NCBI GenBank assembly: GCA_963971575.1
Contig: OZ020625.1
Coordinates: 24,764,992-24,828,991 of the forward strand
Direction: 5' to 3'
Length of the DNA stretch: 64,000 bases
From: Liopterus haemorrhoidalis
Lineage: Eukaryota > Arthropoda > Insecta > Coleoptera > Dytiscidae
Numbering within the stretch: position 1 is the stretch's first letter; each line of letters begins with the position of its first letter. A program made the position numbers and the translations under genes. Shown one piece after another: positions 32,327 to 63,263 of this stretch. Below the pieces are notes generated by a model that worked only from the letters and a program-made list of their open reading frames with translations, did no database searches and was not told the DNA's origin.

Positions 32327-32495
32327 ATGATGAGAAACATTTTGCTTCTTCTGGAGTGTATGGTCATAGTCTTTGCTCTTCCTCGATGGAATAGTTGGCA
32401 TGGGCATGGAAATGGACACGTGCATGCACACATGCATGGACATATGCATGGACATCATGGACAAGGACATAGACTTGGACAAATCAACTGTGGAG
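32327..32495 (+). CDS. Gene A coding exon 1
   Basis: Two adjacent ATGs (32327, 32330) just after a TTTTTTTAGGG acceptor (AG at 32323-32324), so an upstream non-coding exon is implied. It encodes the signal peptide and His-rich segment and ends INCG + G at donor GTAAAT. Exon 1 of gene B has the same start context and the same end. Confidence 0.8.
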
Positions 32496-35400
32496 GTAAA
32501 TTAATCATCTAATGGTATATTCTGTAACAAGGTTGGAATGAGAAAATTCGATGCGAGTGGAACATTCCGAGTGCGAGCCGTAGGCGAGCGTGAGGAACCA
32601 CGAGCATCGAATTTTGGTAATCCCTTGAGCTACCTAGAAAAGTAATTTCCTTCTCCTGGTTCCCGAAGGTATTGTGTGACGGCTTATTTACAATTTTATT
32701 CGAATTTTAGACGCTAAATATCCAGTTGGCCACCATATGCACAATCATCCCCCAGGACATCCTTGGCACAGGCCTCATCTCTGTAAACCGGTGGAAGAAA
32801 AGTCAGCCATAACTACAGGCGACACCAATTGCGGCGGTGAGTTAAGATCAGTGACAAATCCACACTTTCAGCGGCCTGAAGCTAATAATAAGTTAGGGGC
32901 CCATGAGTTGAAGCAATATACCACGTTACTCAATAAGTCTCCGGTCTAAAGGTGCCTGTCCACTTGAGAGTACTCTCGAGAGTAACTCTCGAGAGTAACT
33001 CTCACGGGTTTGTCCACTAGAGAGCTGATTTCGATCGGGTGGACTCTCGAGAGTACCTTGCGAGTTGCTCTCGAGAGTAACTCTCACGGGTTTGTCCACT
33101 AGAGAGCTGATTTCGACCGGGTGGACTCTCGAGAGTACCCTGCGAGTTGCTCTCGAGAGTAACTCTCACGGGTTTGTCCACTAGAGAGCTGATTTCGACC
33201 GGGTGGACTCTCGAGAGTACCCTGCGAGCTGCTCTCGAGAGTAACTCTCACGGGTTTGTCCACTAGAGAGCTGATTTCGACCGGGTGAACTCTCGAGAGT
33301 ACCTTGCGAGTTGCTCTCGAGAGTAACTCTCACGGGTTTGTCCACTAGAGAGCTGATTTCGACCGGGTGGACTCTCGAGAGTACCCTGCGAGTTGCTCTC
33401 GAGAGTAAGTCTCACGGGTTTGTCCACTAGAGAGCTGATTTCGATCGGGTGGACTCTCGAGAGTACCTTGCGAGTTGCTCTCGAGAGTAACTCTCACGGG
33501 TTTGTCCACTAGAGAGCTGATTTCGACCGGGTGGACTCTCGAGAGTACCCTGCGAGTTGCTCTCGAGAGTTACTCTCGAGAGAACTCTCAAGCCTGTGTC
33601 CACTTGATCAGTTGTGGAGAGTAATCAAGATGGCGTCGTACTATAGAAAGGTCGCAGTAGCTGTAATAATTCTAACTATTTATAAAAAAAGAAAAAAGTT
33701 AAATAAAAAAAATTTGCTGGATTAAGTCATGGATTGATAGAAGAAGTGTTTTAGGTGCCTTCAATAATTTCTGAAAATCAAAAATGAAATGGTGCTGCAT
33801 CTATTTTTAATAATAAAGTTGAATTGATTAATATTATTAAAAATTTATGTACTTTTAATAATTCTCTTATAAAATTTATTTTAAATATTATTAATAAAAT
33901 TGCAAATAAAAATAGTTGAAACTATAGCTTTTACTAAAAAATATTTAATAAAAGATTTAGAGGAATATGATTTTTCTTTTTTCTTAATAAAGGAATGTAA
34001 AGTAAAAGAAAGGAAAGTAAATTAATTTCTAATCCTATTCACGCCCCTATTCATGAAATTGAAGAAATTGTGATTATTCTTCCTGTAAATAAAGTTGATA
34101 AAAAAGAAAATAGATATTAAAAAGAAAAGGGTTATTACCTTTATATTTGGGGTATGTACCTAAAAGCATAATTAGCATATTTTGTTGTTAATTACATTTT
34201 AGTAGAAGATGTACAAAGTTTTTTGATACTTTAAAAAATAGTTTAATTCAATTAAATGTAATTACTGAAATAATTTAATAATTTAATTTTAGGTTCTACT
34301 TAATTATTTGGGGTAATTAGTTATTAACAAAGGTAAAAATTTACTTAATTTATTCTATCAAAATAATTATTTAATGTTTTAAACTTTATTTTAATAAAAA
34401 AAAACATATATATTTTTATTTTTAAATTGAATTAAATTTAAACTAATTAATAATTTTTAATGAAATTTAAAAAAAAATGGTTAATAGGTTGGTAATTTTC
34501 TAAATTTAGGGGTATAAAATTTCCTACAAAACATTATGTTTTTTCATTCTGTCACGGTAATCGACACATTTCACGATCGACAGAATTTCCCGGAGTTCGT
34601 ACAAGCCGATTAATTTATTTATTTCCTCCGGTGACGAATTTTTGAACATCTTGTAAGCAGACAGCTCTCGAGAGTACTCTCAGGAATTCGAACACAGTTC
34701 GTATTTGGCGAGCTACTCTCGGAGAGGGTAGGGAGCACGTGTCCACTTGCGAGTACGTTGAGAGTAGTTAGCTCTCGGAGAGTAGCTCGCCACTTTCTGC
34801 GAGTTACTCTCAGGTGCCTGTCCACTTGAGAGTAACTGCTATCGAGAGCTTCTCGCCACTATTTACTCTCAAGTGGACAGGCACCATACCTAAGAAAAAC
34901 ATTTTTTTTTTTTTAGAAATTCGATTTTATTCATCAACATACGCTCCTCTAACTTTTCGATGCCTTATGATTTGTCTTTGCCCTTAAAATCGGCCTCGGT
35001 TTCGGTAGTCACTTCTTCAATTGAGTCAAATTTCTTCAAATTTGAGGTCTGCAAAAAGCCAGTAGTCGCTGGGGGCCAGATCTGTAGAGTACGGTGGGCG
35101 AGGAAGCAATTCGAAGCGTAATTCATTCAATTTAACCATCGTTTTCATCGGCTTGTGACACGGAGCGTTATCTTGGTGAAAAAGCATTGTTTTCTTTTGC
35201 ATGTGAAGCCGTTTTTTTATCGACCTCCAACATATATAAAGGAGGTATTGTGATCATACCGATTTTGACATTTCGAGATTTCGATGGAATTGAGGTCCCT
35301 GCATAACGTTTTGACTATTTTTAGAATGATGTCTGTCTGTCTGGCTGTCTGTCTGTTTGTGTGTCCGTCCATCTGTCTGAGTACACGTGCAGAGCAAATT

Positions 35401-38400
35401 CGGCTTAAAGGATTTTTATGAAACTTCATATTTAAGCTTTTGACAACAATGGCACAAGTTGATCAACTTTTAGTAAAAATCGGAAAAATCGTGTAGAAAT
35501 GGGAGTTTACTCGTGTCGATTTTAAGATTTTTGCGAATATTTAGCAACAGAAAAATATATCTAAAAAATTGATGTGAAGTGTGAATATTTACACATTTCA
35601 GGGTTTCGCAGGTATATAATAAGTGAAGGCGGTATGCTGAGTGTGTAGGACAAATTTTACTTTGTAGTAATCACGGCAAAATGAACGATATTTTTAAAAT
35701 AATTTATCGTCTGTTAATCATATAATAAGACTGGTTATTAAATTTACGCTCATAAAAATTAAATACAACATTTGTCAAAATATAACTAGAATTTTGACAA
35801 AATAATTTCAACATAATAAAAATGCAAAAAAAAACAGAAAAAATAAAATTCACTCCGGTACCCGAACTCGAAACCCTTCGTTTTCCAGCCAGTTTAAGAG
35901 CGCTCTAACGCATGTAGCCATCGCACGCCATGCATGTTAGTGTCTTACATTGGTATAACGTTTGTACTTTGTGAACCAAAAACCACAAAAAATGCGTTAT
36001 TTTCCAAAAACATAATCTGATCAAAAATTCCTGTTGTACTATTTCGGTTCACACCAATATACATTACTTAGAATTTTTTTAGATTTTTAGTTTAAACCAT
36101 CTGAGCTACAGGGTGTGGGACAAAAATTTTTTTGCACATTTTTGGCAAAAATCGCATCAAAATAATTTATTTTGCAAAAATAAAAATTTGATCGTTAATC
36201 CACGTACTAAGGGCTTTCATTTGATACTCTACTCAGAATTTAAAAAAAATATTTTTGTTTTCGATGAGCACATATTTGTTTATATTTTTAGGGGGGTATG
36301 TTTTTTAGATGTTTTAATATTTTTCCTATGTGCGGGTCAAAAAGTTGTATAAGCATGCCAAATTTCAACTCTCTAGGTTTAGCCGTTTGGCTACAATTTT
36401 TACCGAACAGACAGACAGACAGACAGACAGGCAGACAGACAGACAGATAGACAGACAGCCAGACAGACAGACAGACGACAAAATGACGGTATAAGGGTTT
36501 TTTTGTCATACCTACAAAACCCTAAAAACATATCCCCCTACAACAATGTCCAAATATGTGCTCATCGAAAAATTTAAATTCTGAGAGGGTTTCAAATGAA
36601 AGCTCTTAATACGTGGATTAACGATCAAAATTTTATTTTTGCCAAATAAATTATTTTGATTCCATTTTTGCTTAAATTCTGCAAAAAAATTGTTCCACGC
36701 CCTGTAGCCCAGATGGTTTAAACTAAAAATCTGAACAAATTCTAAGTAATGTACATTGGTGTGAACCGGAATAGTACATACAATAGGAATTTTGGATCAG
36801 ATTATGTTTTCGGAAAAGAACGCATTTTTTGTGTTTTTTTTTTGTTGACGATGTACAAAAGTTATAGTTATGTAACACACTATACTAGAAGGCGTAGTTT
36901 TTTCCATTTTTATTTTTTTTAAATTATTTTGTCAAAATTCTAGTTATATTTTGGCAAATAAATGTGGCATTTAATTTTTAAGACCGTAAATTTAATAACC
37001 AGTTGGAATTGTTGGAATTATATTTTCATTCTGTCTCATGTATACGAAACCAGACGGACGGAGCCTATGAATTAAAACAACCAATGGAAGCCATAGTCGC
37101 ATTTTTCTAAATTTTAATGATTATTGCTATAAAAAAAATACTGCATATATTTAGAAACCTAAATAATGGTATTAAGTATTCGAATTAAAATTAACAAAAA
37201 AATATTTTAACATAAAATTTGTTTGTAAAGTTTATAGATTAAGAGACGATAAATTATTTTAATAATATCGTTCATTTTGTCGGTACCAAAAAGCAAAATT
37301 TGTCCTACATACTCAGCATGCCGCCTTCACTTATTATATACCTGCGAAACCCTGCAATGTGTGAAAATTTACACTTCACATCTTTTTTAGGGTTTTGTAG
37401 GTATGACCAAAAAACCGTTATGCCGTCATTTTGTCGTCTGTCTGTCTGTCTGTCTGTCTGTTCGGTAAAAATTGTAGCCAAACGGCTAAACCTAGAGAGT
37501 TGAAATTTGGCATGCTTATACAACTCTTTGACCCGCACATATGAAAAATACTAAAACATCTAAAAAACATACCCCCCTAAAAATATAAACAAATATGTGC
37601 TCATCGAAAACAAAAATTTTTTTTTTTAATTCTGAGTAGGGTATCAAATGAAAACCCTTAGTACGTGGATTAACGATCAAATTTTTATTTTGGGAAAATA
37701 AATTATTTTGATGCGATTTTTGCCAAAAATGTGCAAAAAAAATTTTGTCCCACACCCTGTAGCCCAGATGGTTTAAACTAAAAATCTAAAAAAATTCTAA
37801 GTAATGTATATTGGTGTGAACCGAAATAGTACAACAGGAATTTTTGATCAGATTATGTTTTTGGAAAATAACGCATTTTTTGTGGTTTTTGGTTCACAAA
37901 GTACAAAAGTTATACCAATGTAAGACACTCACATGCATGGCGTGCGATGGCGACATGCGTTAGGGCACTCTTAAACTGGCTGGAAAACGAAGGGTTTCGA
38001 GTTCGAGTACGGAGTGAATTTTATTTTTTCTGTTTTTTTTTTGCATTTTTATTATGTTGAAATTATTTTGTCAAAATTCTAGTTATATTTTGACAAATGT
38101 TGTATTTAATTTTTAAGAGCGTAAATTTAATAACCAGTCTTATTATATGATTAACAGACGATAAATTATTTTAAAAATATCGTTCATTTTGCCGTGATTA
38201 CTATAAAGTAAAATTTGTCCTACACACTCAGCATACCGCCTTCACTTATTATATACCTGCGAAACCCTGAAATGTGTGAATATTCACACTTCACATCAAT
38301 TTTTTAGGTCATCACTTGTATTTCCGAAGCGAGGACCTTTTTTTTATAGATTATCTCCTGAAATTTAGAAGTGAGAACCTTATTCATAGTTATGACTTCC

Positions 38401-41400
38401 GGGCCCCCTCCAAAAAAAAAAATTCCTGGGTGCGCCACTGCATGCAACCCTAAAACTAGTCGTAGTAATATGTGTAACCAGGACACGACATTAATTGTTT
38501 ATGACGGAAAAAAATAACACTAATTTCAATTTGTATTTCAGAAAAGAATTATCCACATGATCATCCTCTCCATAATCATCCACCTGGACATCCTTGGCAT
38601 AAACCAGAGCTGTGTCCAAAATCAACAACCACCACCACAACAACTAGAAGACCAACAACAACAAGGCCATCAACAACCACCACAAAACCAACAACAACAA
38701 CTTCAACCACAACTACAAGGCCAACAACAACTACAACCACAACAACAACAACAAGGCCAACAACAACTACAACCACAACAACAAGGCCAACAACAACTAC
38801 AACCACAACAACAACAACAAGGCCAACAACAACTAAAACCACAACAACAACAACAAGGCCAACAACAACTAAAACCACAACAACAAGGCCAACAACAACA
38901 ACAACAACAAAGCCAACAACAACAACAAAGCCAACAACTTCAACCACAACAAAACCATATCCAATAACAACATTACTTCCAACAGAATCTGAAGAAATAG
39001 TAGACGAAAATACATTTAAAAATATAATACAAAACAACTATTATAACAAATTAATACCATCAGACCTCAAAAAACATCTACTTGGCCAGTCAATACCACT
39101 ACAAAAACTACAAAAAGCATTAAAAAAATTCGATCAAAACATACAAAAAAATACCCAATTCCCAACCACAGAAATTGATATACTACAAAAAAATGTTAAA
39201 CATTATTTGAAAGACCTAAAAACAAGCAAACAATTAAAATCAGCCACTCTGAAAGATAAAGTGGAAAACGGAGAATTGGAATTAAGCCCTGAATTAAAAG
39301 ATTATATATTGCATGACAAAATACGCACTAACAAAGAATTAAATGATTTACTTAATAAACTCCCAAAAGAAATGGAGGAGAAGAAATTGGATTATTGGAC
39401 AAACTACAATAACCCTGATATTCTTACACCACAGGAAATTGAAAAAATTGAAAAAGAAATATCTGAAATGATAAAAAGTGATATTGCAAAAAACACAAAA
39501 CCAGACGCAACAGAACTGGCAAAAAATGGCAAACTTAATGGAATATTAAGCCCAGATCTAATAAATTTTATTTTAAACCCTAAAACAATCAAAGAAGATA
39601 AACTACTAAATAAATTACAAAAAGATATAGAGAACAGTAAAAAGAAATCTGCATTGCCAGGAGATCTAACACCAGAAGAACTGGATGAGGTAGAAAAACA
39701 AGTTACCGATTTATTAAACTCAAATAAACAACAAACAACAGACTTATTCACCCTTCTAAATACAGGGGAATTGGATAAAATCGTGAGTTCTGATTTAAAA
39801 AAATATCTCCAAGGAGAAAAAAGCTTAACAACTGAAGATCTGAAGGAATTAAAAAAAGAATTTAATGATAACATCAAAAAATCCCTGGATCATTATTATA
39901 CTGAAGAATATAATGCCTTATTATCCAATCAAACTATACCAGAAGACAAGTTGAAACCTGAACAACTAAAAGAAATCGAAAACCAAGTTAACAAACTTCT
40001 ATCAAACCCTGAAGAAACATTATTTGATGTTATTAACAGTGGAAAATTGGATAATATACTAACAGAAATTTTAAAAAAATATTTACTCCATGGCCAAAGT
40101 TTTGACAAGCCAACACTAGAAAAAATGAAAACAGATTTTGAAAAGAAACTTCCAAATATTTCACTTGAAAATAAAAAATATAGTGATGAAATCCTAGATC
40201 TTATACAAACCGGAATTGATTCTTTACAGCAATCAAATTTATTAGACTTAATAAAAAACGGTAAATTAGATCATTTATTAACACCTGAAATTAAAAAACA
40301 AATATTGGGACAACAAAAATACCCAAAAAATAAACTAAAAGATATGATTAAAGATTTACAAAAAAATACAGCACCAGAAAATGAAGTTCTTAAAGAAATT
40401 ATTAAAATATTAAACGATACCCTTCAAAAACCAGACGTGATGGAACTTGTTAAAGAAGGAAAACTTGACAATCTTATAACACCAGATATTAAAAAAGTAT
40501 TACTAGGACAAAAATCTGATATAGATTTAGACAAAATGACAAAAGAGCTAGAAGAAAATTTGCAAAGTGTATTAGTTAAAAATCCAACTCCATACACTCC
40601 ATCAGAACTGACAGAATATGAAAAAGAGATCAAGCAATTATTAAAAGATACAAAAGAAATTTTAGATAAAGTCAAAAATGGTGAACTAGATAAACTTTTG
40701 ACACCAAACATAAAAAAACAATTGCTAGGACAACAAAAATACAACAAAAAAGATTTAGAAGACATGGTTAAAGATTTAGAACAAAATTTTGGCACTCAAT
40801 TGGTAGAATATTTAAAAAATCCCACAGTAGCAAAACATTCACCTGAAGAACTTAAAAATTACGTTGACAAAATCACAAACATGTTGCAAAATGCAGACCA
40901 AGACTTGTTAGAACTTGTTAAAAATGGTAGTTTAGATCATCTAGTAACACCTGATATTAAAAAACAATTACTTGGAGAAGCAAAGTATAACAAAAAACAA
41001 CTTCAGGATATGGTTAAAGACTTGAACAATAATTATATAGATCTATCTTATATTGAACCAAATGATCTCCAAAGTTTCAACGAAATTGAAAAACTTTTAA
41101 AAGAAGCAATTGTAAATGCTGAAGAACCAGATGATAACTTGTTGAAACTTGTAAGGAATGGTGAATTAGATGAACTTATAACATCAGACATTAAAAAACA
41201 TTTGTTAGGAGAACAAAAATACAACAAAAATGAATTAGAAGACATGGTAAAAGACTTAGGGAAAAATTTTGCTGCTCAATTGGTCAGATATTTTACAAAT
41301 CCATCAATAGCAACGCATTCTCCTGATGAATTAAAAAAATACGTCGATGAAATCACAAACCTTTTGCAAAATGCAGAAGAAGACACGTTGGAGCTTGTTA

Positions 41401-43835
41401 AAAACGGTAGTTTAGACCATCTCATAACACCTGACATAAAAAAACAATTACTTGGAGAAGCAAAATATAACAAAAAACAACTGCAAGGTATGGTTAAAGA
41501 ATTAAACAAAAATTATATGGATATATTAGAAGTTAAGCCAGAAGATCTCCAGAGATTCAACGAGATTGAAAAACTTTTAAAAGAAGCATTTGTAAATGCT
41601 GAAGAACCAGATGATAACTTGTTGAAACTTGTAAGGGATGGTGATCTGGATAACCTTATAACACGAGGCATTAAAAAACATTTGTTAGGAGAACAAAAAT
41701 ACAACAAAAATGAATTAGAAGACATGGTTAATGACTTAAAGAAAAATTTTGCTGCTCAATTGGTCAGATATTTTACAAATCCATCAATAGCAACGCATTC
41801 TCCTGATGAATTAAAAAAATACTTTGATGAAATCACAAACCTTTTGCAAAATGCAGAAGAAGATACGTTGGATCTTGTCAAAAACGGTAGTTTAGACCAT
41901 TTCATAACACCTGACATAAAAAAACAATTACTTGGAGAAGCAAAATATAACAAAAAACAATTGCAAGGTATGGTTAATGAATTAAACAAAAATTATATGG
42001 ATATATCAGAAGTTAAGCCAGAAGATCTCCAGAGATTCAACGAGATTGAAAAACTTTTAAAAGAAGCAATTGTAAATGCTGAAGAACCCGATGATAACTT
42101 GTTGAAACTTGTAAGGGATGGTGAACTGGATAACCTTATAACACCAGACATTAAAAAACATTTGTTAGGAGAACAAAAATATAACAAAAATGAGTTAGAA
42201 GACATGGTTAATGACTTAAAGAAAAATTTTGCTGCTCAATTGGTCAGATATTTTACAAATCCATCAATAGCAACGCATTCTCCTGATGAATTAAAAAAAT
42301 ACTTTGATGAAATCACAAACCTTTTGCAAAATGCAGAAGAAGACACGCTGGATCTTGTCAAAAATGGTAGTTTAGACCACCTAGTAACGCCTGACATTAA
42401 GAAACAATTACTTGGAGAAGCAAAGTATAACAAAAATCAACTCCAAGGGATGGTTAACCAGTTAAACAATAAAGATCTAACTAATATTACTCCAGATGAT
42501 ATCAAAAGAGTTAAAGATATCGAAAAGTTGTTAAAAGAAGCAATAACAAATGCCGAAGAACCAGCATTAGACGTGTTAAAACTTGTCAAAAATGGAGAGT
42601 TGGATAATATTTTAACACCAGAAATAAAAAAACAATTACTTGGAGAATATAAATATAACAGAAAGGAACTAGAAGATATGATGAAAGAATTGGACAAAAC
42701 CTTTCAAGATGAGTTAGTAAAACATATTAGGAACCCAAATTCACAACTAAATACAATAGTTCTTGCCCAAAATATCGAGGAAATAAAAAAGTTACTCCAA
42801 ACTGCAATGGATCAAAAACAACCTAACCCAAATAAAGAAAAATTGATCAATTTGATTAACTCTGGTGGTCTAGATATGTTGTCTCCTATTGTTAAAAATC
42901 ACCTCTTAGGCACATCGATAACACCTTTAGAAGAAGTAAAAATAGAGCTCGAAAATAACATTAAAGAAGCCATAAGAAAAAACCCATCCAAAGCAAATAC
43001 TCTAGAAAAATTGAAGAATATTATAAAATCTGTTATCGAAGATGAAACTTTACAGAAACCAGACACCAGAAAAGAGTTACAGAATCTTCTAAATGGTCCT
43101 TTGTCCTTTTTAGGGCAAAATGTAAAAGACTACATCTTAGGAAAATCTTCAGACTTACAACAAATAAAAAAAGAACTAAACAAAAATAGCGTTAATGAAA
43201 TATTAAAATCAAATAATAGAAAACGACAAGAAGAAATCAAAAAATTAAAAGACAAAATAATGTCCTTAATTGAGGAAGACTTAAAGGATAATAACAATCT
43301 TCTAAACTTAGCAACCAGTGGAAAATTATCAAAAATTTCACCATCTGCCTCTGAATATATCCTTGGTAAAAAATTAACAGAACCCGAATTACAAAAACTT
43401 AAACAAGAAGTAAATGACAATATTGATGAAGCAGTTTTGGCTTATTTTGAAAATGATAGAAAGACAGATTTAACTCCTGAGCAATTGTCCAATTTACGAA
43501 ATGAATTAAATAAGAAAATAGATGACGATATATTGAATGCTGAGCCAGTTTTAACAGAAGAGGAAGAAATGACATGGTTAAGAGATATTCTATCTTCTGG
43601 AAAGTATGATCACTTAATCCCCTGGGAGATCAAGGGAATAATTAATGGGACAACGCACCCAACACCTTCTAGAATTGAAGACCTGATGGAACAAATTCGT
43701 AATATTCCAGATACTAATAATGAGGTTAAAAATGTTAAGACAATTATCCAAAAAGGACTACGGGATATATCGGAACATATAAAGGAGTCCGTTAATCGAG
43801 GGACAGTGGGATATTATAGGAACTGGGAGAATTAG
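32327..43835 (+). CDS. Gene A: giant secreted His-module/Thr-rich/IKKxLLG-repeat protein (3 coding exons, 1862 aa)
   Basis: I do not recognise this family. Exons 32327-32495, 32711-32836 and 38542-43835 join with phase-1 introns (GAC and GAA codons across the joins), total 5589 nt. Order: signal peptide (LLLLECMVIVFALP, residues ~5-18); Gly/His-rich stretch with MHGHMHGHHGQGH; a CGG junction; exon 2 module (HNHPPGHPWHRPHLC); second module (HNHPPGHPWHKPELC); ~120 residues of Thr with Arg-Pro/Lys-Pro (mucin-like); about 20 units of ~75-80 aa, each with N-G-x-L-D-x-L-x-T-P-D-IKK-x-LLG-E and Lys/Glu-rich helices. No transmembrane segment after the signal peptide. His clusters suggest binding of Zn, Cu or Ni and the Thr tract suggests O-glycosylation; both are inference. 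It ends about 75 residues earlier than gene B relative to homologous sequence. Confidence 0.75.
32553..32622. repeat. Short palindromic repeat in gene A intron 1
   Basis: AAAATTCGATGCGAGTGG and CACGAGCATCGAATTTTGG face each other across ~35 bp of GAGTGCGAGCCGTAGGCGAG sequence, in a 215-bp intron. Likely a tiny MITE or foldback. Confidence 0.5.
32711..32836 (+). CDS. Gene A coding exon 2 (His/Pro module)
   Basis: 126 nt, symmetric phase 1-1, preceded by CGAATTTTAG and followed by GTGAGT. It encodes YPVGHHMHNHPPGHPWHRPH, then LCKPVEE and a TNCG end. Same length and phase as gene B exon 2. Confidence 0.82.
32951..34885. mobile_element. TIR element with an 82-bp tandem array, superfamily unknown
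   Basis: Perfect 22-bp TIR starting GGTGCCTGTCCACTTGAGAG at 32951 and its complement ending at 34885. It contains the 82-bp array, an AT-rich centre (33720-34550) and more CTCTCGAGAG/CTCTCGGAGAG boxes near the right end, including an internal direct copy of the TIR at 34813. No transposase frame. The target duplication is unclear (flanks AAA and ATA). Confidence 0.75.
32985..33590. repeat. 82-bp tandem repeat, about 7 copies
   Basis: GGGTTTGTCCACTAGAGAGC recurs at exactly 82-bp steps (33006, 33088, 33170 and onward). Each unit holds two CTCTCGAGAG palindromes. Copies differ at a few positions only (CGATCGGG/CGACCGGG, CCTTGCG/CCCTGCG). Confidence 0.92.
35219..35560 (-). repeat. Rep-A copy, reverse
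   Basis: Starts CGACCTCCAACATATATAAA, includes a short GTCT microsatellite (35330-35375) and the AT-rich body, truncated where Rep-B begins at ~35567. Confidence 0.8.
35567..36530 (+). repeat. Rep-B copy, complete
   Basis: 5' ATTGATGTGAAGTGTGAATA to 3' CATACCTACAAAACCCTAAA, with a GACA microsatellite at 36408-36475. It forms an inverted pair with 37384-38303. Confidence 0.87.
36531..37383 (-). repeat. Rep-B copy, reverse, diverged
   Basis: Same landmarks in reverse (TACGTGGATTAACGATCAAA, CACACTTCACATC-like end) but no microsatellite, and more divergence than its neighbours. A non-homologous stretch at 37040-37250 is shared with the copies at 44760-45000 and 52030-52250. Confidence 0.72.
37384..38303 (-). 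repeat. Rep-B copy, reverse, complete
   Basis: From TTTTTTAGGGTTTTGTAGGT to TTCACACTTCACATCAATTT. It closely matches 35567-36530 in inverted orientation. It lies ~240 bp upstream of the gene A exon 3 acceptor. Confidence 0.87.
38306..38441. mobile_element. hAT-like terminal fragment
   Basis: The sequence ends GGGTGCGCCACTG; read in reverse it starts CAGTGGCGCACCCAGG, typical of hAT termini. Only one end found. Similar CAGTGGCG ends occur near 8015 and 12637. Confidence 0.4.
38542..43835 (+). CDS. Gene A coding exon 3 (module 2, Thr tract, LLG repeats)
   Basis: The acceptor TTGTATTTCAG ends at 38541, and the open frame runs 1764 codons to TAG at 43833. The true frame reads Thr/Pro across 38630-38960; Gln-rich (+) and Val-rich (-) frames there are shadows. 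The IKKxLLG core recurs from ~39073 (LKKHLLGQ) to ~43630. Units 41101-42540 repeat at 480 bp with near-identical DNA. No in-frame ATG exists in the first 660 nt, so the exon cannot be an independent gene start there. Confidence 0.85.
40621..42540 (+). repeat. 480-bp higher-order tandem repeat inside gene A
   Basis: Each 480-bp block (160 codons) holds two alternating LLG units, one ending in HSPDELKKY..EITNLLQNA and one in FNEIEKLLKEA. 41281-41340, 41761-41820 and 42241-42300 are identical over 60 bases; the block at 40801 is more diverged. Confidence 0.93.
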
Positions 43836-44545: not shown

Positions 44546-44765
44546 ATTTTTAATAGGGGATAGGCATGATTTTTTTAATTATAGTCCTCTTGTTGCATAT
44601 AACATAAAAAATTGATGTGAAGTGTGAATTTTCACACATTTCAGGGTTTTGCAGGTATTTAGGGGATAGGCATGATTTTTTTAATTATAGTCCTCTTGTT
44701 GCATATAACATAAAAAATTGATGTGAAGTGTGAATTTTCACACATTTCAGGGTTTTGCAGGTATT
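44546..44765. repeat. ~104-bp tandem duplication at a Rep-B 5' end
   Basis: GGGGATAGGCATGATTTTTT ... GGGTTTTGCAGGTATTTAG occurs twice head to tail (~44556 and ~44660), duplicating Rep-B's first ~50 bp with its left flank. Confidence 0.8.
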
Positions 44766-45698: not shown

Positions 45699-45751
<53 letters not shown>

Positions 45752-49438: not shown

Positions 49439-49440
<2 letters not shown>

Positions 49441-50765: not shown

Positions 50766-51090
50766 ATACCTCGCGCCCCTGGCAAATGCCCCGATGCCAA
50801 CGCCTTATTACGGCTCTGGTTCTTTCTAAATACAGCTCTGTTGCTGATAAACTATAAATAATTTTTATAAAGGGGTTAGGGGAATCAAGGAAAAACCTAT
50901 TATTATTAAAGATCTCATCTAAAAAGACAAATCGAATAACTTGACAATAACATAAAGTCTTTAACAATATTAAAAGTGCACAATATACGAATTTTCGAAT
51001 AAAATATATTTAGTGTTGTTTTGCAATCAAATAAACGAGAAACAGGTAAGTTATTTTAAACAATTATTTGTTTTATTTGAATATTATATT
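50766..51090. other. Unassigned interval
   Basis: Related to 29430-29700 (CTCTGTTGCTGATAAACTATAAATAA; GGGGAATCAAGGAAAA). No gene. Confidence 0.45.
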
Positions 51091-51160
51091 TTTACCGACC
51101 ACCAACATATATAAGGGAGGTATTGTGATCATACCGATTTTGACATTTCGAGATTTCGAT
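51091..51160 (-). repeat. Rep-A 3' end, reverse
   Basis: TTTTTACCGACCACCAACAT to TTTCGAGATTTCGATG, where a mariner begins. Confidence 0.75.
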
Positions 51161-51975: not shown

Positions 51976-51976
51976 T

Positions 51977-53122: not shown

Positions 53123-53156
<34 letters not shown>

Positions 53157-53212
53157 GACAAAATGACGGTATAAGGGTTTTTTGGTCATACCTACAAAAC
53201 CCTAAAAAAACG
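51977..53212 (+). repeat. Rep-B copy, longer variant
   Basis: ATTGATGTGAAGTGTGAATT to CCTACAAAACCCTAAAAA, with the extra segment (GCGCCTATGGCTTCCATTG) at ~52190 and a pure GACA array at 53126-53157. It ends ~290 bp upstream of gene B's first coding exon. Confidence 0.85.
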
Positions 53213-53502
53213 CCACGAACTTTTTCCCAGACCTTTATTATAACTAATTCAAATGTAGCTATATAAGATCCATTTAAGACCCGCCTCGGGGAAACGGATA
53301 TGGACCCGGATACGGATTTTTATTTTTTACGGATCATCCGCGGATTCGGAGCAACGGCACTAAACAAAATTCATATAACCTACTAAAAACCCTACCTAGT
53401 TTATTAACCTTAATTATGTTTTTATATCGCCGAACACATCAGAGAAAAATTGTGTTCTTTCTATCTTGTTCAATCTTGTATAATTTACATATTTTTTTAG
53501 GG

Positions 53503-53767
53503 ATGACGCGAAAAATCTTGCTTCTTCTGGGGTATATAGTCATAGTCTTTGCTTTTCCTCATGGACATCATCATCATGGACGCCATCATCATGGACACCA
53601 TCTCCATGGGCACCATCCCCACGGGCACCATCCACATGGACACCCTCTCCATGGGCATCATCCTCCTAGACACCATCCTAATGGGCACCATCATCCTGGG
53701 CACCACCGTCTTGGGCATCACCCTCCTATGTACCATGATCATGGAAAAGACCAACTCATCTGTGGAG
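53503..53767 (+). CDS. Gene B coding exon 1 (signal peptide and His repeats)
   Basis: ATG follows ATTTTTTTAGGG (AG 53499-53500). Degenerate CATCATCAYGGRCAC codons give HGHHPHGHHP-type repeats. Ends ICG + G at donor GTAAAT, as in gene A. Confidence 0.8.
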
Positions 53768-54684
53768 GTAAATTAAACACCGTCTTCTTCTTCTTCTATA
53801 TTATTATTTAAACTTCTATTTTATTATATTTTTAATTTCAAAAAATTGATGTGAAGTGTGAATATTCACACATTTTAGGGTTTCGCAGGTATATAATAAG
53901 TGAAGGCGGTATGCTGAGTGTGTAGGAGAAATTTTACTTTGTAGCAATCACGGCAAAATGAACGATATTTTTAAAATAATTTATCGTCTGTTAATCATAT
54001 AATAAGACTGGTTATAAAATTTACGCTCATAAAAATTAAATACAACATTTGTCAAAATATAACTAGAATTTTGACAAAATAACTTCAACATAATAAAAAT
54101 GCAAAAAAAAAAAACAGAAAAAATAAAATTCACTCCGTACTCGAACTCGAAACCCTTCGTTTTCCAGCCAGTTTAAAAGTGCTCTAACGCATGTAGCCAT
54201 CGCACGCCATGCATGTGAGTGTCTTACATTGGTATAACTTTTGTACTTTGTGAACTAAAAACCACAAAAAATGCGTTATTTTCCAAAAACATAATTTGAT
54301 CAAAAATTCCTGTTGTACTATTTCGGTTCACACCAATATACATTTCTTAGAATTTTTTTAGATTTTTAGTTTAAACCATCTGGGCTACAGGGTGTGGGAC
54401 AAAATTTTTTTTGCACATTTTTGGCAAAAATCGCATCAAAATAATTTATTTTGCAAAAATAAAAATTTGATCGTTAATCCACGTACTAAGGGCTTTCATT
54501 TGATACCCTACTCAGAATTTAAAAAAAATATTTTTGTTTCGATGAGCACATATTTGTTTATATTTTTAGGAAGGTATGCTTTTTAGATGTTTTAGTATTT
54601 TTCCTATGTGCGGGTCAAAGAGTTGTATAAGCATGCCAAATTTCAACTCTCTAGGTTTAGCCGTTTGGCTATAATTTTTACCGA

Positions 54685-54718
<34 letters not shown>

Positions 54719-57700
54719 GACAAAGTGACGGTATAAGGGTTGTTTGGTCATACCTACAAAACCCTAAAAAGACACGCCCTAGCCATAAATACAAAATAGT
54801 ATATTGTGTAACAAGTGCAGAAACTATACATTTGCCGATTGAGAAACATATTTGCCGCTCTCGCTGAGCTCGCGCGGGTATCTTTCGAATAGGGTTGTAC
54901 ATCGAAGGAAAAACATCGATGTTTAACATCGATGTTAACATCGGCGCATACTATCGATGTTGAAAAAACATCGAAGGAAAAACATCGATGTATCGGAAAC
55001 ATCGATATTTTTATTAATATTAAAAAAAGCTATTTATTTATATTATATAGGTTTTATTTAATAATGTAAAGATAAAATACGAAAAAAGTAACATATAATA
55101 CACAAAAAGCATTTATTAGATTTTGAAATAGAAATATTCCTTTTTAATAGTAATTAATTTCACATTAACATTATTATACCCAATATAATAATCCTAATTT
55201 GTACCTACAGTCTATTCCAAACGATTAGGCGGAACTAACCGCAATTTTCATTTTTGTAATTTGTCATTAGATATTTTTTTATATATTGAAGTTGATTTTT
55301 TCTGAACAAAATTATCAAAAGCTTCAATCAATCGGTAAAAGTAACTAGAATTGAAAATCTAGTTCCGCCTAAACCAAAGGAACAGACCTTACTATTTTTA
55401 CATTTCTAAAATGAAATATTGGATTTTATTACAATACTAATATAGTAATCTTAATGTTAATTTTATATTATTTAACATAAAAATAACACTGTCATACAAT
55501 TATTTTTATACTTTTTTAAGTTGAAATAAAGTCTGTTCCTTTGGTTTAGACGGAACTAGATTTTCAATTCTAGTTACTTTTACCGAATAATTGAAGCTTT
55601 TGATCATTTTGTTCAGGAAAAGCCAACTTCAATATATAAAAAAATAGCTAATGACAACTTACAAAAATCCAGGGATTGGAGGAATAACAACTGGGAAAGT
55701 GTCAACAAGACTCAAAAAGAAAAAGTGTGTTGGCGTCTTTGGTCGTTCGCATTGTTTGCAAAAATTAGAAGTTTCTTCTTATTTTTTCGTATTCTGCTAA
55801 CTGCTAAGAAGAATAAGAACTAACACTATTAATATTGTTATATCACAATAGATGGCGCTTATATTTTGTGTTCTAATTTTAATAAAAATTAAATTTTTAA
55901 GATTCCAGCGCCTCTAGAGGTAGTTTCTGAATTTCAAAGTTTAAACATCGACATCGGTAATTGAGAAGTGACATTACCGTTGGCGGCGCTGTAATTCATG
56001 GCAAAATGGCTGAATTGTCTAGTATATAGCTGTCAATATGCTAACAGGGAACAGGTTAATTTAAGCACAGTACATTTTTATTTTATGAAAATGTATCTAT
56101 CGACGTTCTAACAAAAAATCAACACTAGAAAATATGTAATAATTTCAAACAGTACTACAGTCGCGTAGTACAATATTTGACCACCAGACTGCGTATCCGA
56201 GCGTGTCAGTTCTCAATAGACATCGATGTTTTAGCGATACTATCGCCAGCTGACCATCGATGGTAAAAACATCGATGTTTTTAAAACAAACATCGATGTT
56301 TTCAATACATCGATGTTTTTTTCACATCCCTACTGTATATCAAAGGGAATATTTTCATATGCATATATTTCAAATTCTGCACAGTTTAAATGAAATACAC
56401 AGTTGATTGGTTCACTAAATCTTTATTTTATCAATGGTTAATTTACAAAGAATCTTAATCAGTAATATTTCTGGCTGGTCCTGTCCGGCTGACGCACTAG
56501 TCAGTCATCGTTCGAACGTTGTAGTTAGCTATTTTCCCGTTGGTCAGATAAGTTTTAGCTGTGGAAATTCTGAGAATTAGTTTTGTGATTTATTGTGGTT
56601 CCACACGAAACAGCGTCATAGACGGATTCAGTGAACTTTTTTCTATGGATTCAGTGACCTGGTTTTAGGGATACAACACGCATATGCGGTTTTTAAGCTA
56701 ACGCAGAGGACTGAGGGGTTTTACGTTTATGTTTTCTCTTATTTTCGGAGATCTTTGATTTGACCGAGCCTAGTCTCTTTCCGAGCATCATTTGGACCCA
56801 GAAACCATCCTCTCTGGTTCAGCAAGTTCCTAAGACGCGCTAGAAATTCAGATGGGTTGAGACTCGCCGGTGACGTCACAAGGACAGACAGCTTGTGGCG
56901 AGCGCACCATTCCTGCACCCCGCACCGCTAGGACACGGCCGCACCATAGTCGTGCTCGAGAATAATCGGAGGTTCCCGAACGTGGTCCGGCATCAGCTGT
57001 TGTCGGCGAACTGTTAAGTTGAAACTAATGAACAGGACCTAATGGCGCCCTCATATAATCCGCCCCTTCTCCATTGAGCTGGCTAGGAGACCCTCAATTC
57101 CGCCCCTGTCACCAACCCTTAAGTTAAGGATAAGGCGAGTGTGACAGTCCCGAGAATTACCTAGAAATGTAATTTCCCTTTCCTTTTTCCCGAAGGTATT
57201 GTGGACGGCTTATTTAGAATTTTATTTGAATTTTAGATACCAATTACCCAGTTGGCCATCCTATGCACAATCATCCTCCAGGACATCGCTGGCACAGGCC
57301 TCATCTCTGTAAACCAGTGGAAGAAAAGCCAGCCATAACTACGCACGACACCAATTGCGGAGGTGAGTTAAGATCAGTGTCAAATCCAACCTTTCAAGGG
57401 TCTGAAGCTAATAATAATTTGGGGGCCCAAGAGTTGAAGCAATATATAATTAGTTTTATGAAACCTTTATTGCAAAATTTTACATTAGTGTATGTTACGT
57501 CCGCGCCTAGTCGTGAAGGTTCTCGTTGGATGATTTTTTACGATTTTAGTAAAGGCCTAACTCAACAACAATGCATAGATTCGCTTCGTTCAACTTTTAG
57601 TAATGAAGCACCATCAGAAAAGACTGTTTACAATTGGTTTGCAGAATTTCGTCGTGGTCGTGCGTTCGTCTGTGGTGAATCTCGTGAAAGTCAACCAAAA

Positions 57701-60700
57701 TAGGTTGTGATTCAATAAAACATCGATGTTGTGCGAAATTGATTGAAGAAGATCGGCATGTGACTTACTGTGAGTCAGAAGCATCCTTTGGCATATCGCA
57801 GACTGCAATACAATCGATCTTGCATGAACATTTAGCTGTGAAAAAAATCTGTTCCCGATGGACTCCGCATAATTTGACCGAAGCTCAAAAAAAGGCTCGT
57901 GTTGATTGGTGTAAGGGAATGCTAAACAAATTCAACCTAGGCACTGAAAAATCCGTATACATCATTACAGGTGACGAAACTTGAATTTATTCATATGAAC
58001 CGGAAACTAAGCAACAATCCATTGTTTGGGTCAAGATGAACCGAAACTCATAAAAGTTGTTCGTTCACGAAGCACTTCCAAGAAAATAATTGCTTGTTTC
58101 TTTGGTTGTACTGGACATGTCGCAACCATTCCTTTAAACAGGGGTCCCCAAACTTTTTTGACCGTCGACCCCTAGAACAGGTTTTCGACATCGTATCGAC
58201 CCCCTCTATTTTACAATTACGTTATTATAATAGAGCAAGCAAAAAATACGCTTATGTGATTTCTTATATTGTTTATTGTACAGAGTTTTTTATTTATATT
58301 ACATTTATCTAATATAATTACATCTAATTGCATTACAATAATATTATTATTAAATAAAATTGCCTATCATTGTTAATGTGACGGGTGTGGTTGGTGACTC
58401 TTTGCAAGATTAGCAATGTCGGGTTCAAAATTAGTTAATTTCAGTCTTAAATCGCCACGGAATTTTACATCTAACTTGTTTCTCTGTTTTGTCAATATGG
58501 AATTAACATGACCAAAACCAGTCGCATCCACTGTGTAGCTACACAGTGTAATTTTTAACTTTTTTCCATAGACCCCCAATCAACACCCGAGCCAGAATCG
58601 ACCCCTAATAATGACATATCGATCCCCGGGGGTAGCTCTGATTTAGAGGATGGGAGAACAGTTAATGCTGAATGGTATACAACAATTTGTTTGGCAGAAT
58701 TCATCGACAAAATCAGGGAAAACAACCAAAAACCTCGCATCATTCTTCATCATGACAATGCAAGATCCCACACAGCTCGTCAAATAAGTGATTATTTGAA
58801 GGAGAAAAACATCTAATTAATGTTTCATTGCCCGTATTCACCTAATTTATTCCCTAACGACTTTTTCTTGATCCCCAATGTCAAACAAAAATGCGTGGAT
58901 AGCGATTTTCATCACCTCAAGAAGCTGTTGAAGTCTTCGAGAACCATGTTTTTGATATTTGGCAAATTTTTTTGGAGAATTGGTTTGAACGCATGCAAAA
59001 TTGTATAAATCTTAAAGACGAATATTTTCAACAGCAACAAAACAGTTTGTTCAAAAAAAAAAAATGTCTTTCTCAGTTTTTGTAAAAACTTAAAAGCTAG
59101 CCCTCGTATTTAATTCCAAATCTTATGTATTGTGTATCTGTCAATGTTTTAAAAATGTCCTACTATAGTCGGATTGCTGAGAGGTGACTGTTACATGTAT
59201 GTATCAAGTAGTGCATTCATATAATAGTCTAGTTACCATTTTTCAGCGATTTTAAAAATGTTTTTTGTTATTTGTCTTAGCTGTCAGTGTCTGGTAATAA
59301 ATATTAATTAGTAGAGCTTGCGGTCAATTATTAAATTCACAAACTTTAATTTTAAATCTGCTGGGATATTTTAATTCCGAAAAAGATAACAATGGGTCAC
59401 TTATTTCTCTATCTTGTGTCCATCAAAGAGTAGCAGCTGACTTAAAGATTTCGGAATCAACAATTCGTAGAATTATAAAATGTAATAAATCTGAACTTCG
59501 CACTAACAAAATCACGAGAAAACGAAGAAAATTAAAATCTGAACCAGTTTATTTTATTGATACATTGGCACAAACATAAGGTCATGAAGTACTAAGATTA
59601 CCTCCTTATCACTGCCAGTTTAACCCCATTGAACTAATTTGGGGTATAACAAAAAATTATTATGATAGACATATTGGTCAAAACGGATATAGTGATAACA
59701 AGTTTTGAAAATGTAGCAGTGTAGTAGCCTGTGATCAAATTAGTAGTTAAACTTGGGCAAAATCTGTAAAAAAAAACGAAAATTTAACAAATGAATGGTG
59801 GGAAAGGGAAAGGATTGTTGATGATATTAATCCAATAATAATAAATACAAGAAATGACAGCGATAGTTCAGATGACGACGATATCATGCATTACAGTGAC
59901 TAATTTTTTTAAAATAAATTAAACATTTAAATACAACTTGTTGTAATATATTATATGAATAAATATATTTTTACTTAATATTTTATTACTTTGTACGTAG
60001 GGGAAGATTTAATTTAATTAAACAACAAATTATAATCTAAAATTTACGTATGAGTATAAGTTTTTCCTTATTTATAATTATTACCTTAAAATTAATAATT
60101 TTGTTTGTTTGAGTACTGCTGTGAATTTATTTTCGTGCTCAAATTAGTAAAGATATCTACGAATCATGCCGTTTCTTTCTAATGCTTTGTTTTTTATTAA
60201 AATAATTTGGAAGGTTAGTTGTCAACTTGCGTCACTATATGTTACTATGGGTATGCAAATAATTATAATGATATAGACAGAGAAAGCATATAGTATTGTA
60301 CATCGATACTTGTAACAACGAACAGTCACCTATCAGCAATCCGACTATATGCTCTATTTCAATTGCACATCTCTTATACCCTTTTCACAGTAGATCTTTA
60401 AGATCCGATGTTAAAGTGAAGGTATCTTTAAACGCTAATGTGAAACCGTACGGCCTCATCTAAACACAAGCGATGTTTAAGACAGAGATCTGCGTCTTAA
60501 ACTTCGTCTGCATTGCCAACTTAATTTCTATTATAAAAAAATACTCCTTGAATTTGTACTGTCAACATTTTATATTATCATAAACAAGAATACTGTATTA
60601 TATCGACGTTATAAGAAGTTTATACTTATTGTTATAATAAAATTATTTATTTTAATAATGTGTTTAATAAAATACAGAGCTACAATAATTGAGATAAAAT

Positions 60701-63263
60701 GTATCGACTTACATGTTAATACAGGTGTAATATATTCTTTATAGTAGTGTCTTTATTGTAGAATGAAATGAAATATCCATATTTGTTTATAATAATAGAC
60801 CATATTAGTGTGTCGTCACATACATGTGCTGCCATCTGAGAGCTGAGTCCTTTTGAAGTTTAAAATTCATAGGACATTGCTTTTGTTACCTTAATTTTAT
60901 AAATATTTTCAATTTTGGAGCAAAAAATATGTATTTTTGATAAATATATACTAATATATACAGTCCAGACACTTTACATTATAGAATAATGATTTTATAA
61001 ATATATAAATAAGGATTCGAAGATATATTTATAGGTTACGTTTTTAAATAATATGAAAATCGGAATATCTTTAGTATTTATTTAATTAACACTAAATAAT
61101 CATTAATATTTTGTTTTAGAATGCATATTGGTGTATTGTTTTGCTCCGAATTGTAACAATTACATCTACATTATTAATTGCAAATTTTTTCGTTTTTTTG
61201 ACAGATGAAAATGAAAAACAATAATGGAAAATTAAAAACAACATATTATTCCTTTAAACCATTTAGATATGGCACACACACTTATTGCTATGTTACTTGC
61301 CATAATAACGATTATTAACGTAAATTTTTCAAAATTAACCTGCAAAATAATATTTTTCTGCAAAAATAATGACATATTAAATTATAATGTATAAAATAAG
61401 AATTTTAATAAATAAATATTGACTTGTAGTTTTGATGTGAAGCACTCTCTTACTTTGAAAACTTAATTTATATTTCCAAAATACAATTTAACAGAAAAAC
61501 AACATGCTAAATTCAAATAAAAGGAATCCAACCGCGAGACGGCAGCACTGAATCCCATTTTGTCACGTAGTTACTAATATGGTCTATTCAAAATGTGCGT
61601 CTGCGCAGACAGTTCAAAACTGGTAATTTCATGACGGTAACTTAAGGACAAAATTACTGTAGCTGATGACAGCACCAGAGATTTAAACATCAAGTGTGAA
61701 AGCATACCGATCTTAAACATCGGTGAACTTTAAGTTCACTCGTCTTAAAGATCTAGTGTGAAAACGGTATTAAGACCTGCTTGTTTGGGGACATAGTCAT
61801 CAATAAAACGCATTTTTGCCTTATAAAGACGAATTGTTAGAATCATTTCTGGGACAACTTACAGATCGGATTTTAAGCATGCTTTCAGAAGTTTAAAAAT
61901 TACTTTGCCATCTCTCTATAATTACCAATGTTTGAACAAAACTTGAAATTCACATATAAGATAACTCGGTGTTAATGAATTAATTTTAATTCGTATTTCA
62001 GAAAAGAGTTATCCTGTTGGCCATCCACTACATAATCATCCACCAGGACATCCTTGGCATAAACCAGAGTTATGTTCAAAAACAACAACAACAACTATAA
62101 GGCCAATAACAACAATAATACCATGGGAACCAATAAGACAGACAAATACAACTCCAGAACCTACAACAACCACAACAGAATCAACAACTACAAAGCCAAC
62201 AACAACTATAGAACCAACAACAACTATTGTCGCTGAAAAATTGGAAAATATTATTGAAGAAGATAAAACTTTACCGAAACCAAACACCAAAAAAGAGCTA
62301 GAGGATCTTCTAAGTGGTCCTTTATCCTTTTTAGGTCAAAATATTAAAAGCTACATCTTAGGAAAATCATCAGATTTAGAACAAATAAAAAAAGAACTAA
62401 ACAAAAGTTTTGTTAATGAAATATTAAAATACAATAATAGAAAACAACAAGAAGAACTAAAAAAATTAAAAGATAAAATAATGAATTTAATTCAGGAAGA
62501 CTTAAAAGATAGTATCGATCTTCAAAACTTAGCAACGAGTGGAAAATTATCAAAAATCTTGCCAGGAGCCTCTGAATATATACTTGGTAAAAAATTAACA
62601 GCACCCGAATTAAAAAAACTTAAAGAAAAAGTGGATGAAAATATTGATGAAGCAATTGTTGATTATTTTGGGGATGACAGAAAAACAGATTTAACCCCTG
62701 AACAATTATCGAAATTACGAAAGGAATTAAATAAAAAAATAGATGATGACATAACGAATTTTAAAACAGTTTTGACAGAAGAGGAAGAAATACTTTGGTT
62801 AACTAATATTTTATCGTCTGGAAAGTATGATCATATAATTCCAAATGAGCTCAAAGGTATTATTATGGGAATAGAATACCCAACACCTTCTAGACTAGAA
62901 GAACTGATTCAACAAATCCGTAAAATACCAGATATTGATAATGAGGTTAAAACAATGAAGGCAATTGGTCAAAAAATGCTTCAAAATATGTCAGAAAATT
63001 TAAATAAGTGGCAGTTGGATTATTATAATAAAATATTGAACAATTTTGGTCAACCAAATCAACCAAAGGTACCAGTTTATCCTGAGTCTGCAGGATCTAA
63101 TGATTATGGACTAGTATTTCCAATGGGAGGTTACCCAAATCAGATTTCTACAATTGCTGAAAATGAATTGAAAGATATGGTACAAACCTTTGATCCAAAT
63201 TCTTCAGATCCACTGGATTTTAGTAAAATAAAAACTGCCAAATTGTGTTGTACAGAGGAATAA
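53503..63263 (+). CDS. Gene B: secreted His-module/Thr-rich/LLG protein, paralog of gene A (3 coding exons, 550 aa)
   Basis: Function unknown. Exons 53503-53767, 57237-57362 and 62002-63263 join in phase 1 (GAT and GAA) to 1653 nt. Signal peptide ILLLLGYIVIVFAFP; then ~60 residues of HHHHG/HGHHPHGH-type His repeats, far more His-rich than A; exon 2 module (HNHPPGHRWHRPHLC); exon 3 module (HNHPPGHPWHKPELC); a short Thr/Pro tract; 3 LLG units (IKSYILGK, ASEYILGK, LKGIIMG); and a unique Pro/Gly-rich tail ending KTAKLCCTEE. The C-terminal ~300 residues align with gene A's end, but the ~17-unit array of A is absent. Start chosen at 53503 because AG|GG precedes it as in gene A; an in-frame ATG at 53416 lies upstream of that acceptor. 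Metal binding and O-glycosylation are inferred. Confidence 0.76.
53840..54772 (+). repeat. Rep-B copy in gene B intron 1
   Basis: Complete copy, close to 35567-36530, with a pure GACA array at 54687-54717. Confidence 0.87.
54890..56332. mobile_element. hAT-type MITE 'CATCGATG' family, copy 3
   Basis: TAGGGTTGTACATCG to CACATCCCTA with ACATCGATGT boxes at both ends. Flanks CTTTCGAA and CTGTATAT no longer match well. It carries a further insertion at 55960-56217. Confidence 0.85.
55960..56217. mobile_element. ~258-bp MITE nested in the hAT copy
   Basis: ATTGAGAAGTGAC at the left and GTCAGTTCTCAAT at the right are inverted with one mismatch. Copy 2 of the host element reads straight through (GGTAGTAGACATCG), defining the empty site. 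Probable TA target. Confidence 0.75.
56333..57236. other. Gene B intron 1, unassigned GC-richer stretch
   Basis: 56600-57110 is less AT-rich than its surroundings and might be a solo LTR or gene fragment; no paired ends found. 57115-57236 (CCCGAAGGTATTGTGGACGG) is homologous to gene A intron 1 (32650-32710) and is ancestral intron. Confidence 0.45.
57237..57362 (+). CDS. Gene B coding exon 2 (His/Pro module)
   Basis: 126 nt, phase 1-1, preceded by TTGAATTTTAG, followed by GTGAGT. Encodes YPVGHPMHNHPPGHRWHRPH, then LCKPVEEKPAI and TNCG. Reading on past the donor enters mariner DNA, so the longer frame is spurious. Confidence 0.82.
57500..59015 (+). pseudogene. mariner transposase, interrupted
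   Basis: MIFYDFSKGLTQQQCID and VYNWFAEFRRGR (first HTH), a stop at ~57703, IEEDRHVTYCESEASFGISQ, ICSRWTPHNLTEAQKKARVD, ITGDET with the first catalytic Asp kept but followed by a stop, YEPETKQQS; then the hAT; then LEDGRTVNAEWYTTICLAEF, ILHHDNARSHTARQ (second Asp), a stop, and YSPNLFPNDFFLI (third Asp kept as ND). Multiple stops make it dead. Confidence 0.85.
58139..58640. mobile_element. ~500-bp hAT-like MITE in mariner
   Basis: Starts CAGGGGTCCCCAAACTTTTT and ends CCCCGGGGGTAGCTCTG. Flanks CCTTTAAA and ATTTAGAG are decayed copies of the mariner sequence CCTTTAGAG seen unbroken near 25995 in reverse. Confidence 0.75.
59164..60349 (+). mobile_element. IS630/Tc1-like (DDE_3) element, degenerate
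   Basis: TIR TATAGTCGGATTGCTGAGAG at the left and CTATCAGCAATCCGACTATA at the right (one mismatch). The TA target is included in the repeated end, so exact borders may shift by 2 bp. Confidence 0.85.
59365..59902 (+). pseudogene. DDE_3-type transposase, internally deleted
   Basis: YFNSEKDNNGSLISLSCVHQ, an HTH (RVAADLKISESTIRRIIKC) and a Lys/Arg linker, then a deletion that removes the first two catalytic Asp. It resumes HEVLRLPPYHCQFNPIELIW with the catalytic Glu of DDE, a stop at ~59706, and NEWWERERIVDDINPIII followed by an acidic SDSSDDDD tail. In this family this protein moves TA-flanked elements; this copy is inactive. Confidence 0.8.
60377..61769. mobile_element. TTA-flanked MITE-like element
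   Basis: TIR TACCCTTTTCACAGTAGATC and, reversed from the right end, TACCGTTTTCACACTAGATC; the match extends over TTTAAGA. TTA at 60374-60376 and 61770-61772. Contains the nested element 60798-61584. Confidence 0.78.
60798..61584. mobile_element. 787-bp nested MITE
   Basis: GACCATATTAGT at the left, ACTAATATGGTC at the right; TA at 60796-60797 and 61585-61586. AT-rich, non-coding. Confidence 0.7.
62002..63263 (+). CDS. Gene B coding exon 3 (module 2, Thr tract, 3 LLG units, tail)
   Basis: The acceptor CGTATTTCAG ends at 62001, identical in context to gene A exon 3. Open frame of 420 codons to TAA 63261-63263. The downstream ~1 kb aligns with gene A 43030-43830 at high protein identity (for example GPLSFLGQN, KTDLTPEQLS, LTEEEE). 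Confidence 0.86.

Follow-up and report, generated by a model that had tools for sequence, protein, structure and literature searches.

The Drosophila glue proteins Sgs1, Sgs3, Sgs4 and Eig71Ee possess a signal peptide and Thr-rich repeats prone to O-glycosylation, and are encoded by clustered paralogs; glue proteins change rapidly in repeat number and have a phase 1 intron, which interrupts the signal peptide in Sgs1, Sgs3, Sgs7, Sgs8 and Eig71Ee (PMC6352337). Mammalian HRG carries GHHPH repeats proposed to bind Zn2+ and is predicted to contain two N-terminal cystatin domains (PMC5372734). Here we describe two plus-strand genes, A and B, in a 64,000-nucleotide stretch (the window) of the beetle Liopterus haemorrhoidalis (contig OZ020625.1, designated C14; C14:24764992-24828991 within an assembly of 1,020,077,131 bases and 91 contigs). 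Both encode, in the same order, a signal-peptide-like start, a His-rich segment, two HNHPPGHxWH modules, a Thr tract and repeated units designated LLG. We infer that their products may be secreted, O-glycosylated, metal-binding structural or adhesive material, a tentative reading to which we give a little less than an even chance.

According to the predicted joins, gene A comprises three exons encoding a protein of 1,862 residues, and gene B three exons encoding 550 residues. In A, exon 1 (32327..32495) encodes the signal-peptide-like start, the His-rich segment (residues 20-54) and the first Cys of module 1; exon 2 (32711..32836), an HNHPPGHPWH module 1 and a linker; exon 3 (38542..43835), a second HNHPPGHPWH module, a Thr/Pro tract (38622..38993; residues 126-249), an array of 20 LLG units (39006..43787; residues 254-1847) and the stop. 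In B, exon 1 (53503..53767) encodes the signal-peptide-like start and a His-rich segment with two GHHPH motifs; exon 2 (57237..57362), an HNHPPGHRWH module 1; exon 3 (62002..63263), the second module, a Thr tract (62082..62225; residues 158-205), three LLG units (62292..63008; residues 228-466), an 84-residue tail ending in CCTEE and the stop. GT or AG is present at 8 of 8 splice sites, the four coding introns are all in phase 1, and exon 2 has an identical length of 126 nt (phase 1-1) in both genes. An AG immediately ahead of GGATG suggests a putative intron in the 5′ untranslated region of gene A. The architecture proposed in the initial annotation, with a signal-like start, a His-rich segment, two Cys-containing modules, a Thr tract and LLG units, is thus reproduced by the exon models, and also by the unit profile and the coding constraint given below.

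Like the glue proteins, A and B combine a Thr-rich tract behind a signal-like start (judged by hydropathy) with clustered paralogs, phase 1 introns and a rapidly changing repeat number. Unlike in the Sgs family, their first coding intron lies after the His-rich head, and exon 1 encodes the whole signal-like stretch; HNHPPGHxWH modules and four-helix arrays are features of A and B that go unmentioned for Drosophila glue proteins in the part of PMC6352337 used here. A Thr/Pro tract behind a signal-like start is also reminiscent of secreted Pro/Thr/Ser mucins, but gene A encodes mostly a helical array and not repeats of these residues.

The His-rich stretch contains 11 His among 35 residues in A and 32 among 68 in B. 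GHHPH-type His/Pro repeats, as in mammalian HRG, occur twice in B (at residues 36 and 41), whereas a motif count found none in A. The genes could accordingly be imagined to encode a haemolymph or clotting protein that senses metal or pH, given that the same motif is the proposed Zn2+ binder of HRG (PMC5372734). However, besides the absence of GHHPH from A, Pfam lists no cystatin for A exon 3, B exon 3 or gene D, a relative on contig C5 described below (the scan covered these three and not the spliced N termini of A and B), and the part of PMC5372734 used here mentions neither a Thr stalk nor a helical array for HRG; we consider such a sensor improbable. Since cystatin is not listed, and since the Sgs intron interrupts the signal peptide and here follows the head, membership holds for neither HRG nor Sgs.

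The open frame that contains exon 3 spans 1,776 codons in A and 432 codons in B. When the 6 kb around the A frame were simulated 200 times with a first-order Markov model, the longest frame averaged 108 codons and never exceeded 188, versus 1,776 in A. Over the last three LLG units of A and B (239 codons), divergence is 0.36 per silent site (pS) and 0.14 per replacement site (pN; Fisher p 1.2e-8). Exon 2 behaves likewise in its coding frame (41 codons; pS 0.30, pN 0.07, p 0.0034); read in either of the other frames, it shows none of this bias (p 0.51 and 1). The LLG region and exon 2 of A and B are under purifying selection. The 28 codons beyond the predicted exon 2 donor show no coding bias between A and B (pS 0.112, pN 0.106, p 1); because coding-frame constraint ends at this donor, the exon end is supported without transcripts. 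An exon 2 extending past the donor was rejected, as the open continuation of 28 codons common to A and B carries no such bias and is followed by divergence of the two genes.

The N-terminal hydropathy peak (10-residue mean) reaches 2.9 in A and 3.1 in B, compared with at most 1.45 in the rest of the proteins. The modules are bracketed by Cys residues at positions 55, 81, 97 and 123 of A and 87, 113, 129 and 155 of B, giving the same spacing C-x25-C-x15-C-x25-C. An alignment of five modules (two from A, two from B and one from P0001, a related protein discussed below) contains 13 invariant columns, namely Y7, P8, H11, H14, N15, H16, P17, P18, G19, H20, W22, H23 and P25, with five His and one Trp among them. 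Thr accounts for 84 of the 124 tract residues in A and for 24 of 48 in B.

A profile of the LLG unit, derived by iteration from A and B themselves, recognises 20 units of 65-90 residues in A, and in B three units, one weak partial unit (independent E-value, i-E, 0.0097) and one insignificant match (0.16). The B units are 72% identical to units 18-20 of A. Inside the A array a two-unit repeat of 480 bp was called (40677-42688), and units 10 to 14 differ little from each other (pS 0.04 to 0.13). AlphaFold2 models two units with four helices each (predicted local distance difference test score, pLDDT, 89.7; predicted template modelling score, pTM, 0.59), and four units with pLDDT 86.0 and pTM 0.38. 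The LLG unit is thus a predicted four-helix bundle (pLDDT 86-90), which agrees with the helical repeats of the initial annotation; the mutual orientation of the units is uncertain, so the array probably resembles beads on a string. As a small all-helical bundle, the modelled unit would be comparable to PDB folds built as four-helix bundles or helical repeats.

Comparison of A exon 3 with Pfam yields two families above their cut-offs. RuvC (PF02075) scores 49.4 bits against a cut-off of 22.2 with no stretch passing alone, and 23.7 bits on one two-unit piece; its best stretches cover 40 (whole A exon 3) and 29 (two-unit piece) of 148 positions. DUF7674 (PF24722) scores 35 bits against a cut-off of 27 in three stretches, with 51 of 111 positions covered by the best one. 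On two-unit pieces, for which the best 25 of 51 families were considered, RuvC reaches E ≤0.1 in 8 of 21 (5e-5 for the best, which spans 29 residues) and DUF7674 in 4 of 21 (best 0.0022); the latter is not listed for B, and nothing exceeds a Pfam cut-off for B exon 3. We rejected a RuvC nuclease identity, although the Pfam cut-off is passed, as a helix match over short stretches inflated by repeats. NCBIfam gives nothing over cut-off for A exon 3, B exon 3, P0001 or the frame at 484-945; NF006358 (33 bits, cut-off 585) and ruvC TIGR00228 (23.9, cut-off 100.65) were taken as repeat artefacts.

A profile search of the PDB with two units retrieved the designed four-helix protein Syn-F4-Link (E 3.2e-4) and then S100-A9 (E 0.0028). 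The S100/EF-hand calcium-binding loop was not seen after helix 3, which runs unbroken (34-57 of the model, inspected by eye). The RuvC, DUF7674 and PDB matches are taken, with some reserve for DUF7674 and S100-A9, to reflect amphipathic helices inflated by repeats, even though the two Pfam families still pass their cut-offs.

Other searches produced little. Sequence search of the PDB with B gave five rows (best E 0.16), and BFVD a best E of 0.36. In PHROGs, B and P0001 had no row and A a single one (E 5.3e-4), in which no stretch passes by itself; there was no match in Rfam at the gathering threshold or in viral contigs and GTDB genome contigs. The LLG profile had no match in a set of 5.8 billion proteins (the best 7,995 candidates by common words were scored), nor did a protein search with the module region alone (1 candidate scored), and motif strings were not matched in open-licence (Creative Commons) literature. 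Pfam does not list CBM14 (Peritrophin) for A exon 3, B exon 3, the B exon 2 frame or gene D. On the basis of Pfam, NCBIfam, three protein searches and motif strings in open-licence literature, as distinct from insect proteomes and NCBI nr, no known family seems to fit convincingly. The initial annotation had suggested a secreted family matching no named one; a secreted-looking family lacking a convincing profile hit is supported here, with RuvC and DUF7674 passing the Pfam cut-off on A exon 3 and judged, the latter with some reserve, repeat artefacts, and is enlarged by further loci in the assembly and by P0001.

In 264 kb around and including the window, the LLG profile identifies, besides A and B, 12 minus-strand frames, each with a best i-E between 2e-15 and 1.3e-4, that stretch from position 945 to about -53.6 kb; at E 0.01 it finds nothing else. 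We refer to these frames as gene C; their splice sites were chosen by eye, and they may represent one gene or several. One of the 12 lies inside the window as an internal exon at 603..926 (minus strand; 324 nt, phase 1-1, one LLG unit). Three neighbouring exons of gene C are exactly 300 nt each, are in phase 2-2 and encode one rotated unit apiece, with silent divergence per site exceeding replacement divergence (p 0.033, 0.00019 and 0.00067). LLG units are multiplied by exon duplication in gene C, versus within one giant exon in gene A. The initial annotation had ascribed LLG units to A and B, a set which the exon at 603..926 now extends, and had placed all coding introns in phase 1, which is correct for A and B and fails as a family rule on the three phase 2-2 exons.

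Elsewhere in the gene C region (L015:8653-9378, minus strand; window -41347 to -40622), an LLG unit precedes TTTTEISTTESITTERITTGRTTTERSTTGED, a run rich in Thr, so that a bead is followed by a tract resembling a stalk.

A genome-wide search with the LLG part of B returned 10 places at E 10. A accounts for three of them, the gene C region for five, and B and gene E (described below) for one each; at four of the 10 the match is weaker than E 0.1. The pattern HNHPPGH occurs at six places in the genome and its reversed control at one. Four of the six are the modules of A and B, one belongs to gene D and one lies on contig C11. Because the reversed control also gave one place, one chance match is expected; the C11 match, antisense to long retroelement-like frames (by eye), was taken as such.

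Gene D (C5:961101-963431, minus strand) is an uninterrupted coding frame of 776 residues with TTTCAG shortly ahead of its ATG. It encodes a signal-like start, a His-rich stretch, one YPFGHPLHNHPPGHPWH module, Thr-rich stretches and unit-like repeats, among which four weak LLG-type matches were found (whole-protein E 6.7e-7 in a one-protein search, single stretches 3.1e-5 to 1.5e-3). A Pfam scan gave one row (E 0.078), under its cut-off. The sites RRKR 499, RKKR 572 and KRKR 649 fall about 75 residues apart, between the C-terminal repeats, hinting that D may be a polyprotein precursor cut at basic sites into single LLG-type units, freed as small secreted helical proteins, with A and B as derived uncut forms. 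However, D alone has such sites, the four-residue basic pattern occurring 0 times in A and 0 times in B, and we regard a precursor origin as distinctly unlikely.

P0001, a protein of 648 residues from another public data set, was the sole match in the first protein search (E 1.4e-4; among 7,987 candidates scored). Its tag, lgn, presumably denotes Logan assemblies. It matches D in two segments in the same order (E 1.9e-12 and 1.2e-9), and a later D repeat matches its last unit (1.0e-7), as calculated in a two-sequence comparison with the low-complexity filter off. The P0001 unit scores 7.5 bits with the LLG profile, a value reached by 0 of 2,000 whole-protein shuffles and 9 of 2,000 shuffles of the last 70 residues; this match appears weak alone, and the kinship suggested for P0001 would be carried by its match to D. 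The P0001 module has a full HNHPPGH, and its pattern gives no further place in the assembly beyond the six. P0001 appears to come from another genome, so the family would not be confined to this assembly.

Gene E (C14:14051245-14052252, minus strand), 10.8 Mb from B, is 83% identical to B exon 3 with 388 codons open. It encodes a module with HNYPPGH, a much shortened Thr tract and a CCTEE end as in B; no counterpart of exon 1 or exon 2 was recognised within some 15.6 kb upstream. The 371 aligned codons of B and E remain open, with pN 0.076 and pS 0.070 (p 0.89), a divergence that is relaxed, diversifying or decaying.

A pN/pS ratio of about 1 between B and E, the lack of recognisable exons 1 and 2 upstream of E and the transposon-like sequence in introns would suit decaying or non-functional duplicates in a transposon-rich region. 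Against this stand the long open frames of A and B and the constraint acting on their LLG units, their exon 2 and the gene C exon copies, and we find decay highly improbable. The same ratio, together with the signal-peptide-like start, the clustered duplicates and the turnover of A units 10 to 14, would also be expected of salivary or venom-like secreted effectors, whose repeats serve as multivalent ligand- or host-binding modules evolving fast under conflict. A Thr stalk and a His-rich head are, however, commoner in structural or matrix proteins, and constraint between A and B acts on exon 2 as well as on the LLG units; effectors are in our opinion an unlikely answer.

A structural or adhesive material remains our preferred, if tentative, reading of A and B. 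In such a material, the head rich in His and the pair of HNHPPGHxWH modules bracketed by Cys would bind a divalent metal (Zn or Cu) and could cross-link, the Thr tract would form an O-glycosylated, extended stalk, and the LLG array would act as a flexible string of small four-helix beads providing length and many weak contacts. The combined product could be a glue, a lining, or a salivary or egg-coat matrix, with bead number altered quickly by unit and exon duplication. We favour it because of computed features: the N-terminal hydropathy, the invariant module columns, the Cys spacing, the Thr tracts, the AlphaFold2 beads, the selection on A/B and gene C, the same order of parts in D and the difference in unit number between A and B (20 vs 3). 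Several points speak against it. The signal peptide of A and B is judged from hydropathy alone, and the unit profile and the AlphaFold2 alignments are drawn from repeats of the same two genes. Gene D has only one module, without Cys, and Cys pairs are hence not family-wide. No constraint is seen on the recent pair B and E. Overall divergence between A and B is alike for exon 2 (0.127) and its flanks of about 85 bases (0.129 and 0.146), while the flanks of exons 1 and 3 barely align (0.25 to 0.39); the exon 2 block may stem from a copying or conversion event younger than the sequence around it.

The surroundings of the genes contain several repeats. Two direct copies of 2,994 nt (15800-18793 and 20513-23506), 99.93% identical and 4,713 bases apart, may represent a young long-terminal-repeat-like pair or a tandem duplication, with ends lacking a plain TG..CA. 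A satellite in intron 2 of A (32966-33577) comprises 7.5 copies of an 82-bp unit with 96% matches and abundant GAGAGT palindromes. An element of about 970 bases is found, at 93% identity, in intron 2 of A (35563-36528) and intron 1 of B (53840-54770). One mariner-type transposase frame (31163-31882) matches Pfam Transposase_1 and HTH_48; another mariner-type frame (57230-57703, HTH_48) starts with B exon 2 and continues into the intron 2 transposon. Between A and B lies a LINE-like (long interspersed nuclear element) sequence with a reverse transcriptase frame (RVT_1; 49767-50804, minus strand). TTAGG words of 25 bases are abundant in the whole assembly (2,089 forward, 1,653 reverse; 4 in each direction for the reversed pattern) and open contig C4; many arthropods share this feature.

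We propose that the family is small and changes its bead number fast through unit and exon duplication. A broader interpretation, which we consider doubtful, would be a new secreted superfamily defined by a metal-binding HNHPPGHxWH module and a four-helix LLG bead, both of them new, with beads gained by exon duplication in C and by growth of a giant exon in A, and with D cut into free beads, yielding a tunable extracellular material. The parts list of secreted repetitive proteins would gain a His/Pro/Trp module and a small four-helix bead, neither described before, and bead number changes in one family by both routes, duplication of exons and lengthening of an array within a single exon. Should the modules bind metal, they would be a natural model for glycosylated bio-adhesives or coatings cross-linked by metal.

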